This document shows, piece by piece, positions 26,171 to 36,634 of a stretch of 48,879 nt of DNA (position 1 is its first letter; each line of letters starts with the position of its first letter). The stretch is from the NCBI GenBank assembly GCA_013001975.1, contig JABDKX010000234.1:1-48879 (forward strand). The letters are read 5' to 3'. The DNA is from Saprospiraceae bacterium (GTDB taxonomy: Bacteria; Bacteroidota; Bacteroidia; Chitinophagales; Saprospiraceae). The notes under the pieces were generated by a model. That model was not told the DNA's origin and did not search any database. It saw only the letters and a list, made by a program, of their open reading frames with translations. The position numbers were made by a program, and so were the translations under genes.

Positions 26171-26314
26171 ATTGTGTCCTTCTTTCACATTATGAAAATA
26201 TTACTAGAATGATGAAGATGCGAATTTAAATTATAATATATTTACAATTTTCAAAGTAATTTATATTATTATAAATATCTGTTAATCAATTAAATAAATA
26301 TAAAATAACTACAA

Positions 26315-29081: not shown

Positions 29082-30353
29082 TTAAACCAACAATTCAAAT
29101 AAACTGCGATTATAATTGACATGTTGAAAATTGATCTTGGCGGCTTTCATCTTGTTAATGAGCGGCAAGTAATCTTCAGAATTTTTAAACTCAATGCCAA
29201 CGACTGCAGGACCATTGAGTTTATTTGTTTTTTTCATATACTCAAAATGGGTAATATCATCATTAGGACCAAGGATATTTAAAAATTCTCTAAGGGCACC
29301 TGCTCTTTGAGGAAATCGAACAATGAAGTAATGTTTTTTTCCTTCATATAACAACGAGCGTTCTGCTATTTCTTGGGTTCTACTGATATCATTATTACCA
29401 CCACAAATTATGATACCTACATTTTTTCCTTTGATCTCATCTTTGATTTGATCGAGTGCGGCAATTGAAATAGCACCAGCGGGTTCTACAACAATAGCAT
29501 CTTCATTGTAAAGTTCTAAGATGGTAGTACAAATTTTCCCTTCTGAAACTGTTATACATTCATCAACTATTTCACTACAAATTTGATAAGTGAGATCACC
29601 AAGTTCTTTGACAGCAATCCCATCAACGAAAGTATCGATGTCATTAATTTTTACTCTTTCACCTTTCTTAAGAGACTCGGTTAATGCAGGTGCACCTTTT
29701 GCTTCGACAGCTATTAATTTGGTTTGTGGACTTTGCTGCTTCATATAAGAACCCACACCACTTAATAATCCACCACCGCCTACAGCAACAAGTAAAATGT
29801 CTAGTGGTTGTTTTGCTTGCTTCAGTATTTCAGCGGCGATGGTGCCTTGTCCAGCAATAATGTCAGGATCGTTAAAAGGGTGAATAAAAATGGAATTGTT
29901 TTGTTGAGATTCTTTTATTGCAGCTGATTGTGCATCATCATAACTGTCACCTTCTAAAATAATTTCTATCCATTCACCACCAAATAGTTTAACCTTTTTA
30001 AGCTTTTGTTCTGGCGTAGGATTGGGCATAAATATTTGCCCTCTGATCTTAAGTTTATTACAAGCCAAAGCCACACCTTGTGCATGATTACCTGCACTGG
30101 CGCAAATGATACCTCGCGCTTTTTCATTCTCTGATAATTGAGAAATCTTATTATAAGCGCCTCTTATTTTAAATGACCGCACACTTTGCATATCTTCTCT
30201 TTTCAAAAAGATATTACAATCAAACTTCTGCGAAAGATTAAAGTGTTCTAAAAATGGCGTTTCAATAACAACATCTTTTATTCTTTCTTGAGCGTTATGA
30301 ATGGCATCCTCAGAAATCAATAATGAAGCTTTACTATTTACTTTGGTTGCCAT
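29082..30353 (-). CDS. ilvA: Threonine dehydratase (deaminase), biosynthetic
   Basis: The 423-residue PLP enzyme converts threonine to 2-oxobutanoate, the entry to isoleucine. The PLP lysine is Lys62 in SVRSFKIRGAY. Other motifs are CASAGNHAQGVALAC and VAVGGGGLLSGVGSY. The C-terminal part from about 330 (HYFIVRFPQRAGALREFLNI) is one ACT-like domain for feedback control, as in the shorter IlvA forms; long E. coli IlvA has two. Its start shares a base with the ilvC stop. It is the last gene of the ilv operon. Confidence 0.94.
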   Translation of the reverse strand: MATKVNSKASLLISEDAIHNAQERIKDVVIETPFLEHFNLSQKFDCNIFLKREDMQSVRSFKIRGAYNKISQLSENEKARGIICASAGNHAQGVALACNKLKIRGQIFMPNPTPEQKLKKVKLFGGEWIEIILEGDSYDDAQSAAIKESQQNNSIFIHPFNDPDIIAGQGTIAAEILKQAKQPLDILLVAVGGGGLLSGVGSYMKQQSPQTKLIAVEAKGAPALTESLKKGERVKINDIDTFVDGIAVKELGDLTYQICSEIVDECITVSEGKICTTILELYNEDAIVVEPAGAISIAALDQIKDEIKGKNVGIIICGGNNDISRTQEIAERSLLYEGKKHYFIVRFPQRAGALREFLNILGPNDDITHFEYMKKTNKLNGPAVVGIEFKNSEDYLPLINKMKAAKINFQHVNYNRSLFELLV

Positions 30354-31396
30354 CAGTTTTTAGGTCTTAAACTTCTTACTGTTTTTCCAGCTCTCCACAT
30401 TTCTGAATCTTCCAGCTCTTTTAATTCTACTGTTAATTTTTCTCTATAATCTGGCATACTGTTGCTGTCAATTGAAAGTTGAGCCTCATGACCCTTTTCA
30501 ACACTTTCATATAATTCTGCGAAAACTGGTTTGACGGCATCTCTGAATTTCTTCCACCAATCCAACGCTCCTCTTTGTGCCGTTGTTGAACAATTGGCGT
30601 ACATCCAATCCATTCCATTTTCAGCGATCAGAGGATAAAGAGATTCTGTTGCTTCCTCTACAGTTTCGTTAAATGCCTCGGAAGGGGAGTGTCCTTTTGA
30701 TCTTAGCAAGTCATATTGTGCTGCAAACAAACCTTGGATTGCGCCCATCAAAGAACCACGTTCACCTGTTAGGTCGCTGTATACCTCTTTTTTAAATGTC
30801 GTTTCGAATAGATATCCTGAGCCAATACCAATTCCTAAAGCTTTGACTCGTTCAGTTGCTCTGCCAGTGGCATCTTGAAAAACAGCATAACTGGAATTCA
30901 ATCCTTTTCCAGCCAAAAACAATCTTCTTAAGCTTGTTCCTGAACCTTTTGGTGCTGCTAAGATGACATCTATATTATCTGGAGGTATAATGCCTGTTCT
31001 CTCCTTATAAGTTACGCCAAAGCCATGAGAAAAATACAATGCTTTGCCTTCTGTTAAATAGGGAAGGAGTGTTGGCCACACTGCTATTTGAGCTGCATCT
31101 GAAAGCAAGTATTGAATGATCGTTCCTTTTTCAGCGGCTTCTTCAATTGAGAATAATGTTTCACCCGGAACAAAGCCATCAGCAATTGCTTTGTCATAAG
31201 AAGGCGATGGTTGGCGTTGACCAACTATGACGTTAAATCCATTGTCTTTTAAATTGAGTGCTTGTCCGGGTCCTTGAACGCCGTAACCAATAATTGCGAT
31301 TGTTTCATCCTTGAGAACCTCTCTTGCTTTATCAAGAGAAAATTCATCTCTTGTTACTACGTTTTCTTCAGTTCCTCCAAAATTTAATAGTGCCAT
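30353..31396 (-). CDS. ilvC: Ketol-acid reductoisomerase (class I)
   Basis: The 347-residue protein isomerises and reduces acetolactate or acetohydroxybutyrate with NADPH. The N-terminal Rossmann domain has IAIIGYGVQGPGQALNLKDN followed by VIVGQRQPSPSYDKA. The C-terminal knotted domain has SDLTGERGSLMGAIQGLFAA and ENGMDWMYANCSTTAQRGAL, with the Asp and Glu magnesium ligands. Length fits class I. The Gly-Pro-Gly-Gln stretch in the nucleotide loop differs from the common GSQG form; similar variants occur in Bacteroidota to my knowledge. It starts 11 bp after ilvN. Confidence 0.94.
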   Translation of the reverse strand: MALLNFGGTEENVVTRDEFSLDKAREVLKDETIAIIGYGVQGPGQALNLKDNGFNVIVGQRQPSPSYDKAIADGFVPGETLFSIEEAAEKGTIIQYLLSDAAQIAVWPTLLPYLTEGKALYFSHGFGVTYKERTGIIPPDNIDVILAAPKGSGTSLRRLFLAGKGLNSSYAVFQDATGRATERVKALGIGIGSGYLFETTFKKEVYSDLTGERGSLMGAIQGLFAAQYDLLRSKGHSPSEAFNETVEEATESLYPLIAENGMDWMYANCSTTAQRGALDWWKKFRDAVKPVFAELYESVEKGHEAQLSIDSNSMPDYREKLTVELKELEDSEMWRAGKTVRSLRPKN

Positions 31397-31407
31397 TTTT
31401 TTATTTT

Positions 31408-31965
31408 TTAAATATTATTTGATTCTAATTTTTTGTGATTTCGTTTTTTATCAACCGACTTTAAGTGATTGTTTAGCCTTTCCATTGGTTTTACAATAGC
31501 TACTCTTCCTGACCGTGCAAACTCATAAATTCCAATGATTCTTAATTCTTCTAAAAGTGCATTGGTTTCTTCTTTATGCCCTGTTTTTTCGATAACAATA
31601 TATTCAGGCTCAATGCTTAATATGCGTGCGTTATGTCTTCGTAACAATTCTTCTGTATCATCACTTTGAAAAAATGATTGAGTGGCCACTTTGTAAAGCG
31701 CAATTTCTTGATAGACAATTTCACTTGTTTCATAATAAAAAGCCTTGAGGACATCTACTTGCTTTTCTATTTGTAGCGTTAACTTCCTAACTTGTTCATC
31801 TGTAAGATTTAAGACTAAGGTAAACCGATGAATACCTTTCATTGAAGATTCTGAAGCAGCAATACTTTCAATGTTGATATGCCTTTTTGTTATAATAGCA
31901 ACGACTCTTTGCAGCAGTCCTAATTTGTTTTCAGTAAATACTGTTATCGTAAATTCTTTTTCCAT
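31408..31965 (-). CDS. ilvN: Acetolactate synthase small (regulatory) subunit
   Basis: The 185-residue protein starts with an ACT domain (EFTITVFTENKLGLLQRVVA, IITKRHINIESIAASESSMK, GIHRFTLVLNLTDEQ) that binds valine or a related effector. A second IlvN C-terminal domain follows from about 85 to 165 (ARILSIEPEYIVIEKTGHKE, LRIIGIYEFARSGRVAIVKP). It activates the catalytic subunit and confers feedback inhibition. It starts 4 bp after ilvB. Confidence 0.93.
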   Translation of the reverse strand: MEKEFTITVFTENKLGLLQRVVAIITKRHINIESIAASESSMKGIHRFTLVLNLTDEQVRKLTLQIEKQVDVLKAFYYETSEIVYQEIALYKVATQSFFQSDDTEELLRRHNARILSIEPEYIVIEKTGHKEETNALLEELRIIGIYEFARSGRVAIVKPMERLNNHLKSVDKKRNHKKLESNNI

Positions 31966-31969
31966 AATA

Positions 31970-33703
31970 TTAGCTTAAGGCGATTTCATGTACTGCTTTT
32001 CCTGTTGCGATCATTGGAAAAACATTTTCTTCATTTTCTACATTAACGTGAAGGACGTAGGGGCCGTTATATTCTAGCATTTCAGCTATTGATGATTTTA
32101 AATCCTTAGGGTCGGTGATCTGCTTACCTTTTACACCAAAGCCATCAGAGATTTTTATAAAATCTGGATTTTTTAATTCGACAAATGAATATCGCTTTTC
32201 AAAAAACAACTCTTGCCATTGTCTTACCATGCCTAAATAGTTGTTGTCCAAAATAATTATTTTGACTTGGACATCCCATTGATTGCAAACGCCCAATTCT
32301 TGTAAGGTCATTTGAAATCCTCCATCGCCAATTATTGAAACTACTTGTGCATAGGGTTTGGCTAATTTTGCGCCTATTGCTGCAGGCAATCCAAAGCCCA
32401 TGGTGCCAGCGCCACCAGATGAAATCCACTGGTCGTGACCATTGTAGTCATAGTATCTTGCGGCGATCATTTGATGTTGACCAACATCTGTTGTAACGAT
32501 CGCTTTTCCATTTGTTTGGTTTGAAAGTTCCTTGATGACTTTAGCCATTTTTAATTGAGGGCTTGAATCGGATAAATCTTTACTGATGACTTTGTCATGT
32601 TCCATTTGATCACATTGATGAAATTCTTCTAGCCAAGCTTCATATGATTTTTGTTTAACCAGGGGCGTAAGATCTAACAATGCATCTTTTGCATCACCTA
32701 GAATGGCGACATCTGTTTTTACATTTTTATCAATTTCTGAAGGGTCTATTTCAACATGAATAACCTTAGCTTGTTTTGCATATCTTGAAATATCGCCAGT
32801 GACACGATCGTCAAATCTCATTCCAATTGCAATTAACACATCACACTCATTGGTTTTTACATTTGGTCCATAGTTACCATGCATACCTAACATGCCGGTG
32901 TACAATGGATGTTCGTCAGGGATTGCTGATAATCCATGAATAGTGCTGGCTACTGGAATGCCTGATTTTTCAACAAAAGATTTAAATTCTTTTTGTGCTT
33001 TAGCAATATGAATACCATGACCTGCTAGAATTAAAGGTTTCTTTGCGCTGTTAATTAAAGTAGCGGCTTCTTCGACTTTAGATTTATCAATGATAGGGGT
33101 ACAAGTATAACTTCTTATGATTGGATTTTTCTCATAGTGATATTCGCATTCTCCTAATTGGGCGTCCTTGGTAATATCAATCACAACAGGTCCAGGTCTG
33201 CCTGAATTTGCGATATAAAATGCCTTTGCAAAGACTTCTGGAATTTCCGAGGCTTTTGTAATTTGATAATTCCATTTAGTAATCGGTGCAGAACATCCGA
33301 TCACATCTGCTTCTTGGAATGCATCAGAGCCAAGCAAATGACTGTACACTTGACCAGTTACACAAACCAATGGTGTTGAATCCATCATTGCGTCAAGTAA
33401 TCCAGTAAACAGATTGGTAGCACCGGGCCCTGAAGTTGCAAAGACAACACCAGTTTTTCTAGAAGCTCTCGCAAAGCCTTCTGCTGCATGAATGGCTCCT
33501 TGTTCATGTCTGGTTAGAATATGTTGGATTTGATTTTGATAAGAATATAATGCATCATAGATTGGCATTATCGCTCCTCCAGGATATCCAAAAATAGTAT
33601 GAATGTCTTCTTCTAATAGACATTTTAAAACAGCTTCTGCGCCAGTTATTTTCTGAGCTTTTTTTGAAGCTTTAATTTCTGTTTTATTTTCTTGTGCTAT
33701 CAT
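31970..33703 (-). CDS. ilvB: Acetolactate synthase large (catalytic) subunit
   Basis: About 577 residues from [10 protein letters not shown] at 33703, 5 bp after the ilvD stop; the open frame extends to 33733, but only inside ilvD. The thiamine-diphosphate enzyme shows the catalytic-Glu region [10 protein letters not shown] with THE-like [17 protein letters not shown], the FAD domain and the TPP motif [20 protein letters not shown] followed by [11 protein letters not shown]. It makes acetolactate from two pyruvates and acetohydroxybutyrate from pyruvate and 2-oxobutanoate. Confidence 0.95.
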
Positions 33704-33708
33704 AATTT

Positions 33709-35385
33709 TTAATTGAAGTTGTCTGTAACGCATCCTTCGCTTGCGGATGAAACGTTGTTGCGATATTTTCTTAAAAATCCTGTAACAGGTTTATGTAGTG
33801 GTTTCCATTCTTCTTTTCTTTTCTTTAATTCATTATCATCCAAATGAACAAATATTTTGTTGTCTATGGCATCAATAGTTATTTTGTCACCATCGACCAA
33901 AACACCGATTGTTCCACCACAATAAGCTTCTGGTGAAATATGACCAACAACAAAGCCATGTGAGCCTCCGGAAAAACGACCATCGGTTATTAAAGCCACA
34001 TCTGAACCCAGACCACAACCACTGAGTAAGCCAGTAGGTTTTAACATCTCTGGCATTCCAGGAGCACCTTTAGGTCCTGAGTATCTAATGACGATGACAG
34101 TACCTGCTTTGATTTCATTATTTTGTATGGCTTTGTTTGCGGCATCTTCAGAGTCAAAGATTTTTGCAAGTCCAGTAAATATTTCACCTTCTTTACCTGT
34201 TATTTTTGCGACAGCACCATCTTCTGCTAAGTTTCCGAAAAGTATTTGAAGGTGTCCTGTTGGTTTCATTGGTTTGTCAAATGGATAAATGACTTTTTGA
34301 TCTTTAGCAAGTGGCTTGTATTCATCAAGATTTTCTTCAATTGTTTTTCCTGTGACTGTCAAGCAAGAGCCATCTAACAAATCATGTTGAAGCATCAATT
34401 TCATAACTGCAGGGATACCTCCAACTTGATGAAGATCTTGCATAACATATTGACCACTGGGTTTGAGATCTGCTAAAAAAGGTGTGCTATCAGAAATTTC
34501 TTGAAACTCTTTTAATGAGAGTTTTAAATCAAATGATTTGGCAATTGCTAAAAGATGTAATACGGCATTAGTTGATCCGCCCAATACAGTTATTAATCTT
34601 AGTGCATTTATGATTGATGCTTTTTTAACGATTTTTCTAGGAGTGATATCGTGTTCTAATAGATGCTGGATTGCCTTACCAATTCTTTTTGTTTCTTCAT
34701 TTTGTTCAGGACCAGCAGCTGGATTAGATGCATTCATAGGCAATGACATCCCCATTGCTTCGATAGCTGATGACATGGTGTTAGCTGTAAACATGCCGCC
34801 ACACGCTCCAGGGCCTGGACAAGCTTTTTGAATGATATTTTCCAATTCATTATTGTCGATTTCTCCAGCAATATGCTGACCTAAAGCTTCAAAAGTTGAA
34901 ATAATGGTTAAGTCTTTTCCAGCATGACAACCGGGCGCAATCGATCCACCAAAAAATACAATTGATGGTCTGTCTAATCGACCTAATGCCATCATGGCTC
35001 CAGGCATATTTTTATCGCAACCTACAACTGTAACCAAAGCATCATACCATTGAGCAGAAGCTACAGTTTCAATGGAATCCGCAATGATATCTCTGGAGGG
35101 CAAAGAAAAACGCATGCCTGATGTTCCCATTGAAATGCCATCACTCACACCAATAGTATGAAAAATCAAACCCACTAAATCCTGACTAACTACGCCTTTT
35201 TTAATTTCTTTGGCCAGATCATTCAAGTGCATATTACATGGGTTACCTTCCCAACCAGTGCTGACAATGCCTACTTGAGGTTTTTTCAGATCTTCATTTG
35301 TTAATCCTATTGCATGTAACATTGCCCTTGCTGCAGGCTGCGAAGGATCAGAAGTTACATGTTTGCTGTATTTGTTTAATGTCAT
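33709..35385 (-). CDS. ilvD: Dihydroxy-acid dehydratase
   Basis: The 558-residue iron-sulfur enzyme dehydrates the dihydroxy acids to 2-oxoisovalerate and 3-methyl-2-oxopentanoate. Cluster cysteines lie in [13 protein letters not shown] and [15 protein letters not shown], with [12 protein letters not shown] near the N-terminus. [19 protein letters not shown] is the C-terminal signature. It is the first structural gene of the operon and begins 16 bp after the attenuator terminator upstream. Confidence 0.95.
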
Positions 35386-35400: not shown

Positions 35401-35427
35401 AAAAAAAAGCCATTCATAAAGAATGGC
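35401..35427 (-). terminator. Attenuator terminator of the ilv operon
   Basis: On the minus strand GCCATTC, loop TTTAT, GAATGGC is flanked by A6 and followed by eight T. The stem can reach about 13 bp with the A-T pairs. It sits between the Ile-rich leader peptide and ilvD, so it decides whether the structural genes are transcribed. Confidence 0.88.
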
Positions 35428-35446
35428 TTTTTTCATAAAATCAAAT

Positions 35447-35454
35447 ACCATTCA
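35447..35454 (-). promoter_or_regulatory. Antiterminator strand of the ilv attenuator
   Basis: TGAATGGT begins 4 nt past the leader-peptide stop. Its GAATGG(T) can pair with (G)CCATTC, the first arm of the terminator, which would prevent terminator formation. A ribosome at the leader stop codon would cover this strand; one stalled on the Ile codons would leave it free. Confidence 0.75.
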
Positions 35455-35458
35455 ATCG

Positions 35459-35521
35459 TCAGTTCGTAATAATGATGCTGATAATTGATATTGTAATAAT
35501 AGTATTGATGTTTGATTTCAT
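35459..35521 (-). CDS. ilvL: Isoleucine-rich leader peptide of the ilv operon
   Basis: ATG at 35521 to TGA at 35459-35461 encodes MKSNINTIITISIISIIITN: nine Ile in 20 residues, with three Thr and no Leu or Val. Seven of the Ile codons lie in the eleven codons 8-18. It is followed at once by alternative RNA stems and precedes ilvD. This is the classical design of amino-acid attenuation: low charged tRNA-Ile stalls the ribosome, the antiterminator forms and the operon is read. The symbol is by analogy with enterobacterial ilv leader peptides, whose leaders also contain Val and Leu; homology is not implied. Confidence 0.85.
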   Translation of the reverse strand: MKSNINTIITISIISIIITN

Positions 35522-35542
35522 GCTTAAATTTTTCTAAAGAAA

Positions 35543-35550
35543 CAAATGTA
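35543..35550 (-). promoter_or_regulatory. Probable -7 element of the ilv operon promoter
   Basis: TACATTTG on the minus strand matches TAnnTTTG exactly and lies about 22 bp upstream of the leader-peptide start, leaving a short untranslated region. A TTG lies upstream, but the spacing to it is longer than consensus. Confidence 0.5.
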
Positions 35551-35746: not shown

Positions 35747-36634
35747 ATGAACAGCAAGTTTTTATTATTAGTTATTCTCGGATTGTTTTTTTTCAGCTCA
35801 TGTTCAGACGTTGAAAATGAAATTTGGATCAATGAGGATGGATCAGGAAAAATGGAAGTAAAAATAGACATGAGTTCTATGCTAGAAATGGCGTCGATGT
35901 TTGAAGGAATGGGCGATGAAGGCGAAGAAGGAACTGAAGGTGATGATGAAGAGCAGGAAGAGGAATATGAAATTGAAGAAGAAGAATCAAATTCTTTTGA
36001 AGACGCAAAGAGTTTTGATGATATTATGGACGGCATTATGAGTCCTGAAAACATGAGAGATATTGATACAACTTTCAATATGTATGATGTTATGCCAGAT
36101 TCAATTAAAAATCAAGTTTCTAATAGTGAATTACTTAAAAATATTAACATAAGTGTCTTAGCTAACAAAGCTGAGAGTGTTGCTAAGTTTTCTTTACAGT
36201 TTGTTTATAAAAGCCAAGATGAATTGATGGAAATATTTTCTTCTTTGTCTGAACTTGATTCTGATACAAGTGATGAAGAAAAAGAAGCAAGTTTAGATAA
36301 GTTTAGAAGCATGATGACGCAATATGAGGTTGATTTAAAAAATGGAATTTTAACCTTACCTGCTCAAGACTTTAACGATGACTTGTTAGGAGAAGGATTA
36401 GGAGAAGGAGCAGGAGATAAAATGGACAACATGGACGACGAAGCAATGGGAATGATGCAAATGTTATTTGGAGATGCCAGTATAGTAACTAAAATTCATT
36501 TACCAGGTGAAGTAATTTCTTGCGATGATAAAGAAGCAGATATATTTGGAAATCAAATTCGAGTTAAGGATTCTTTTATGGATCTGATGAAAAATAAAAA
36601 GACCAAAGGTCGAGTCATTAAGTTTAAAAACTAA
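35747..36634 (+). CDS. Acidic lipoprotein of unknown function
   Basis: The 295-residue protein has a lipoprotein signal (FFFSSCSD, Cys about 19). It continues with ENEIWINEDGSGKMEVKIDM, then an extremely acidic low-complexity stretch at about 60-90 (Glu/Asp/Gly). A mixed region of predicted strands and helices follows, with a second Gly/Glu repeat (LLGEGLGEGAGD) near 225. The first motif resembles Bacteroidota lipoproteins with a beta-rich domain that begin with an EVxxxIWINxDGSG pattern; no function is known. It is monocistronic with a terminator shared with the convergent prfC. Confidence 0.7.
   Translation: MNSKFLLLVILGLFFFSSCSDVENEIWINEDGSGKMEVKIDMSSMLEMASMFEGMGDEGEEGTEGDDEEQEEEYEIEEEESNSFEDAKSFDDIMDGIMSPENMRDIDTTFNMYDVMPDSIKNQVSNSELLKNINISVLANKAESVAKFSLQFVYKSQDELMEIFSSLSELDSDTSDEEKEASLDKFRSMMTQYEVDLKNGILTLPAQDFNDDLLGEGLGEGAGDKMDNMDDEAMGMMQMLFGDASIVTKIHLPGEVISCDDKEADIFGNQIRVKDSFMDLMKNKKTKGRVIKFKN

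Follow-up and report, generated by a model that had tools for sequence, protein, structure and literature searches.

A probable leader-peptide attenuator with nine isoleucine codons upstream of ilvDBNCA in a Saprospiraceae bacterium, and related units in Bacteroidota

The ilvDBNCA operon of a Saprospiraceae bacterium is preceded by a short, isoleucine-rich ORF and a terminator-like hairpin which, judging from sequence analysis, very probably form a ribosome-mediated (leader-peptide) transcription attenuator sensing charged tRNA-Ile (probability of about 0.88). The element lies in a stretch of 48,879 nucleotides that was analyzed as a whole (hereafter, the window) and was compared with the regions upstream of ilv genes in related genomes. 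This reading had been proposed in a first-pass annotation of the window, and it was supported by conservation of the leader, by covariation of the terminator and by the preference of the segment just past the leader ORF (segment 2) for the terminator arm of its own locus. The element provides sequence and comparative evidence for a Bacteroidota lineage in which stalled ribosomes on a leader peptide control isoleucine/valine synthesis. If true, this would mean that leaders in this phylum are translated soon enough after their transcription for attenuation to operate. Five genes, in the order ilvD-ilvB-ilvN-ilvC-ilvA, were identified by NCBIfam downstream of the leader:

33709..35385, minus strand: ilvD, dihydroxy-acid dehydratase, the first gene of the putatively regulated operon
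31970..33733, minus strand: ilvB, acetolactate synthase large subunit
31408..31965, minus strand: ilvN, acetolactate synthase small subunit
30353..31396, minus strand: ilvC, ketol-acid reductoisomerase
29082..30353, minus strand: ilvA, threonine ammonia-lyase, the isoleucine-specific step

An intergenic region of 361 nt separates ilvD from a divergent neighbour ORF (35747-36634, plus strand). The following features were found within it:

35543..35550, minus strand: TACATTTG, promoter-like -7 element (TAnnTTTG), 29 nt 5' of the leader ATG
35459..35521, minus strand: leader ORF (putative sensor), MKSNINTIITISIISIIITN, 20 codons plus TGA, conserved in relatives as an Ile/Val-rich ORF
35435..35521, minus strand: 1:2 (protector) hairpin, leader ORF with segment 2, -17.3 kcal/mol, z -3.0
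35447..35453, minus strand: segment 2, GAATGGT, antiterminator half, starting 5 nt past the leader stop codon
35421..35433, minus strand: segment 3, AAAAAAGCCATTC, common to antiterminator and terminator
35403..35415, minus strand: segment 4, GAATGGCTTTTTT, 3' terminator arm
35401..35408, minus strand: T8 tract of the predicted intrinsic terminator, six T of which lie within the 13-bp stem

The leader ORF runs on the minus strand from an ATG at 35521-35519 to a TGA at 35461-35459 and, as first described, has nine Ile among its 20 residues and neither Val nor Leu; three residues are Thr, and there is no Trp codon. The stop codon is followed, after a spacer of 4 nt (CGAT), by TGAATGGT (35454-35447, minus strand). 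The terminator hairpin (35433-35421 paired with 35415-35403) is indeed a perfect one, with 13 bp (GCCATTC/GAATGGC and six A:U pairs), a TTTAT loop and the eight T reported (35408-35401). An ORF rich in codons for the product of the pathway therefore lies 5' of the operon, and an intrinsic terminator lies between this ORF and ilvD. On the promoter side, TACATTTG resembles the Bacteroidota -7 element (consensus TAnnTTTG), and this motif was found 10-70 nt 5' of the leader at 10 of 31 loci with 2.2 expected. No clear -33 element could be observed 5' of TACATTTG, and no Shine-Dalgarno-like sequence 5' of the leader ORF.

Three alternative structures could be computed for the leader RNA. Besides the 1:2 hairpin, segment 2 pairs with 35427-35421 and three more base pairs form, giving a 2:3 antiterminator of -8.3 kcal/mol in a transcript ending before segment 4; this stem uses the terminator 5' arm (segment 3) and is mutually exclusive with the 3:4 terminator (-14.9 kcal/mol; z -6.4 for 35403-35432). 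The three stems compete as a ribosome-mediated attenuator requires, although it speaks against the model that the antiterminator is less stable than either of the other two. The whole leader folds at -37.4 kcal/mol into a structure containing 1:2 and the terminator, compared with a shuffle mean of -19.2 (z -5.3). The annotation had correctly described the 2:3 and 3:4 structures, including the ability of TGAATGGT to pair with the GCCATTC arm, and had missed the strong 1:2 hairpin (35521-35435). Across 31 loci, the 1:2 hairpin had a mean z of -2.05 (range +0.26 to -4.03).

The ORF, the three alternative folds, their conservation and covariation and the link to ilv genes are shown computationally. 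From these, we infer that the leader is translated, that the ribosome controls the fold of the RNA, that the hairpin terminates transcription and that the operon responds to isoleucine. In such a model, which assumes tight transcription-translation coupling in Bacteroidota, a ribosome supplied with ample isoleucine would reach the stop codon and cover segment 2, so that segment 3 would pair with segment 4 and transcription would stop before ilvD. Under a shortage of charged tRNA-Ile, stalling at one of the nine Ile codons would hold the ribosome on the 1-half of 1:2; segment 2 would then remain available for pairing with segment 3, and transcription would continue. If the leader were untranslated, 1:2 and 3:4 would both form and transcription would stop. 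With standard ribosome footprints, a ribosome at the stop codon covers most of 35453-35447, and a ribosome held at codon 18, the last one for Ile, or at an earlier codon leaves this segment free.

How often such features arise by chance was examined in the window. When the 361-nt intergenic region was shuffled 300 times, a terminator of equal quality was never obtained, and the combination of an Ile-rich ORF with a terminator occurred once when both strands of the window were scanned. Shuffling the same region gave an ORF with at least nine Ile in 34 of 1000 cases; in DNA this AT-rich, an ORF with so many Ile codons is by itself no more than moderately improbable and thus constitutes weak evidence, which made comparison with relatives necessary. 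The same shuffles speak for an alternative in which the ORF is an accident of AT-rich sequence and the hairpin a plain intrinsic terminator or insulator, and the A and T runs that flank the hairpin on both sides could let it act on either strand. However, since ilvD and the flanking ORF are divergent, there is no upstream gene for the terminator to end. At the level of sequence, the reality of the leader-terminator unit is settled by its conservation in relatives.

For this comparison, ilvD was found in 28 of 60 related genomes searched, and the best 80 loci of a species-genome scan were kept; removal of two duplicates and two sequences that were too short from 110 loci left 106 distinct ilvD upstream regions. 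A unit was defined as a terminator preceded by a leader in which Ile, Val and Leu make up 40% or more of the residues. Such a unit was present at 31 of the 106 regions, including some from genomes titled Saprospiraceae, Neolewinella, Runella and Arcicella and one titled Cellulophaga; none was found at L085 to L110, most of which bear titles of other phyla. In the 28-locus sample (own locus included), the leader frame was kept as a branched-chain-rich peptide followed by a terminator at 15 of 28 ilvD regions, against a shuffled expectation of 0.05. By contrast, of 336 other ORFs in the fetched regions that were 200 aa or longer, only 4 were preceded by a unit. It should be noted that one of these four background units was in fact an ilvD leader that a previous filter had overlooked, and another was an out-of-frame reading of a Cys leader. 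No unit was detected at the remaining 13 of the 28 regions, some of which end at contig ends (for example, L009), nor upstream of the closest IlvD found (L031, 75%).

A composition test on units selected with R1 (the covariance model used in the wider survey below) is partly circular, because units were picked for their Ile, Val and Leu content. ORFs were thus picked solely by their position relative to a strong terminator downstream, which gave 29 loci out of 82 tested. These ORFs contained 26.1% Ile versus 10.3% in shuffles and 17.2% Val versus 5.2%, and Leu was lower (7.0% versus 11.2%). An accidental ORF would explain neither this enrichment nor the contrast between ilvD and other genes, and we consider an accident combined with a plain terminator highly unlikely.

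The structures of the attenuator were also followed across loci. Segment 2 paired with its own terminator arm at a mean of -12.2 kcal/mol, compared with -8.5 when arms were swapped among the 31 loci, and none of 10,000 permutations was as good. This preference is an average one: the own pairing was the best of all 31 arms in 9 of 31 loci only, the window ranked eighth, and weak own pairing was found at L040 (-1.5) and L084 (-3.7). In an alignment of 22 loci, two of them slightly misaligned in the stem, the terminator was the only predicted consensus structure, and eight of its nine pairs had changed on both sides with pairing kept. Covarying stems, which the annotation had suggested looking for, were therefore found for the terminator, together with the own-arm preference of segment 2. 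In a same-genus relative (L015), the Ile run was lost and the terminator stem was mismatched, with segment 2 and the 5' arm remaining; this joint decay fits the Ile run and the terminator stem being used together.

The position of the unit relative to ilvD bears on the possibility that leader and hairpin act on ilvD translation, by blocking or coupling initiation, rather than on transcription. The T tract of the window ends 15 nt before the ilvD ATG (35385) and could hinder initiation, and one report proposes that ribosomes reinitiate downstream of leader ORFs in bacteria, Bacteroidetes among them (PMC4833913). However, the unit lies anywhere from 9 to 260 nt before ilvD in relatives, which fits termination better than start-site occlusion, and the T tract was kept across the aligned loci. 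An action on translation is thus considered unlikely, and transcription attenuation is the preferred reading.

Because the element is structured, contains a terminator and lies in the 5' leader of a biosynthetic operon, it might be no ribosome sensor at all but a T-box or a metabolite-binding riboswitch. Neither type of family was matched at gathering score or among 16 Rfam matches with E up to 5, no conserved fold beyond the terminator appeared on the alignment, and the feature that was kept is the Ile/Val coding content; we regard this option as extremely improbable. More generally, no Rfam family matched the window leader at gathering score, and a permissive threshold gave sub-threshold matches only, the best being a full-length match to Thr_leader (RF00506; 32.7 bits versus a gathering score of 55, E 2.3e-4).

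Like Thr_leader and the enterobacterial thr and ilv attenuators, the window element has a short ORF rich in regulatory codons, mutually exclusive 1:2, 2:3 and 3:4 hairpins and an intrinsic terminator before a biosynthetic operon. It differs from Thr_leader in phylum and in scoring below the gathering cut-off. Whereas Ile, Val and Leu codons all occur in the ilv leader of enterobacteria, the window leader carries Ile and Thr only and precedes ilvDBNCA.

Among Bacteroidetes elements, Bacteroid-trp (RF01692), listed for this group by Weinberg 2010 (PMC2864571) and likened to a Trp leader in a report on F. psychrophilum (PMC6414381), is likewise a predicted leader-type regulator, but it senses tryptophan and lies before trp genes. 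It did not match the window leader at gathering score or up to E 5. In a transcriptome study of Bacteroides, some sORFs are said to recall leader peptides, and the authors of a 2010 survey knew of no demonstration of leader-peptide systems beyond Proteobacteria and Actinobacteria (PMC2965389). In the literature searched, no ilv leader peptide in Bacteroidetes was found, and the predicted Bacteroid-trp element was the one case from this group. Given Bacteroid-trp, leader attenuation in Bacteroidota is not wholly new, and the remark that it is little described in this phylum needs qualifying. A Trp leader is also present in the own genome: locus L305 (contig C18) carries the Trp leader MNLFTNTNWWWLNTDKAYRD and a terminator before a trpE-like gene, with no Bacteroid-trp match at gathering score.

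To survey bacterial genomes more widely, the R1 covariance model was built from 22 loci, window included. Matches were identified in 89 of 199 family genomes (E up to 0.01), in 10 of 198 genomes of the order sample (E up to 1e-4) and in 39 of 395 genomes of the phylum sample (E up to 0.001); those of the window and the 21 other training loci are by construction, and weak matches were often plain terminators. Of 100 R1 regions fetched, 78 contained a unit followed by an ilv-type gene; the fetched regions covered family places up to an E of ~9.3e-4 and the phylum places other than G371, G356, G509 and a single place of G557. Inspection of the remaining 22 regions revealed a leader in six (five before ilvD; L191 was cut by a contig end) and none in ten; L257 has an ilvB gene with no Ile-rich ORF upstream, and the last five are L232 (tandem Ile leader), L225 (Cys leaders) and L239, L256 and L266 (Thr/Ile leaders), all described below. 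The second R1 match in the own genome proved to be a terminator after an atpG-like ORF (named by eye), not a leader unit.

The ilvD leader units averaged 7.2 Ile, 2.8 Val and 0.8 Leu (78-locus set). Val was present in 74 of 79 ilvD leader units, and the window leader was among the five without. The term isoleucine-specific, used in the annotation, thus suits the window leader and not the family: relatives mostly have Ile and Val, and strict Ile specificity is local. Leaders before stand-alone ilvA genes had no Val in eight of eight cases (L236, L238, L244, L245, L248, L251, L253 and L254); since all eight carry one genus label (g148), they count as one evolutionary case. One genome of this genus (G471) has both types: L238, before ilvA, has seven Ile and lacks Val, and L264, before ilvD, has nine Ile and four Val.

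The window has a single unit. Two units in tandem were found at 17 of the 78 attenuated ilv loci (L178, L183, L190, L201, L211, L212, L215, L230, L233-L235, L237, L240, L241, L246, L249 and L250), with three in L237, and L197 is a further two-unit locus missed by the first filter. Each tandem unit has its own leader, segment 2 and terminator. At these loci, segment 2 paired with the arm of its own unit at a mean of -12.8 (35 cases) versus -8.5 with that of the other unit (38 cases), a preference that was not universal, and two of the L237 units are near copies. The tandem attenuators of Salmonella mgtCBR (PMC3641672) are similar in having two short ORFs in one leader with transcription control, but they serve another host and do not precede an amino-acid biosynthetic operon, and the window has one unit only. 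Tandem units in relatives would offer natural material on serial attenuators, which might give a steeper response, lower leakage or two inputs. We lean towards the view that the window represents the single-unit, Ile-only form of a leader-peptide attenuation system that occurs across Bacteroidota, in which self-contained tandem units (two or, in one case, three before ilv operons, and mostly two poly-Cys units before the sulfite/nitrite-reductase-like gene described below) may act as series gates and codon content may track the controlled genes (Ile for stand-alone ilvA, Ile and Val for ilvDBNC, and Thr and Ile for thrA).

At three of the tandem loci (L240, L241 and L249), the Ile-rich leaders precede a small gene with a weak match to the acetolactate synthase small subunit (32-36% identity). 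A tandem Ile leader was also observed at L232 before an ACT-like gene, whose protein start appeared by eye to be similar to that of the small gene.

Leaders for other amino acids were looked for as well. The region upstream of leuA in the window contains no leader, as the annotation had stated, and the 450 nt preceding leuA in each of 23 relatives likewise held no leader unit. Two candidates were set aside: at L278, lenient settings revealed a Leu-rich ORF and terminator at a distance of 453 nt from leuA, which was tentatively taken as chance, and TTGATTAACAG before leuA (window 26280-26290) occurs in this form only in the window among 23 leuA upstream regions. In the own genome, thrA has neither leader nor terminator, and hisG and a sulfite-reductase domain were not found. 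Thr/Ile-rich leaders with terminators were observed before aspartokinase (thrA-like) genes, named by eye, at L239, L256 and L266.

Finally, two poly-Cys leaders were found at L225 before a sulfite/nitrite-reductase-like gene (L225:819-2951; matches below NCBIfam cut-offs). Homologues of this gene were matched in 48 of 120 family genomes, and among the best 30 loci (L308-L337), 22 had at least one Cys leader with a terminator before the gene, 16 of the 22 having two. The 38 Cys units paired with their own arm at -8.3 versus -6.3, and none of 10,000 permutations was as good. A SAM riboswitch was observed downstream of the Cys-leader operon, at L225:6872-6985.
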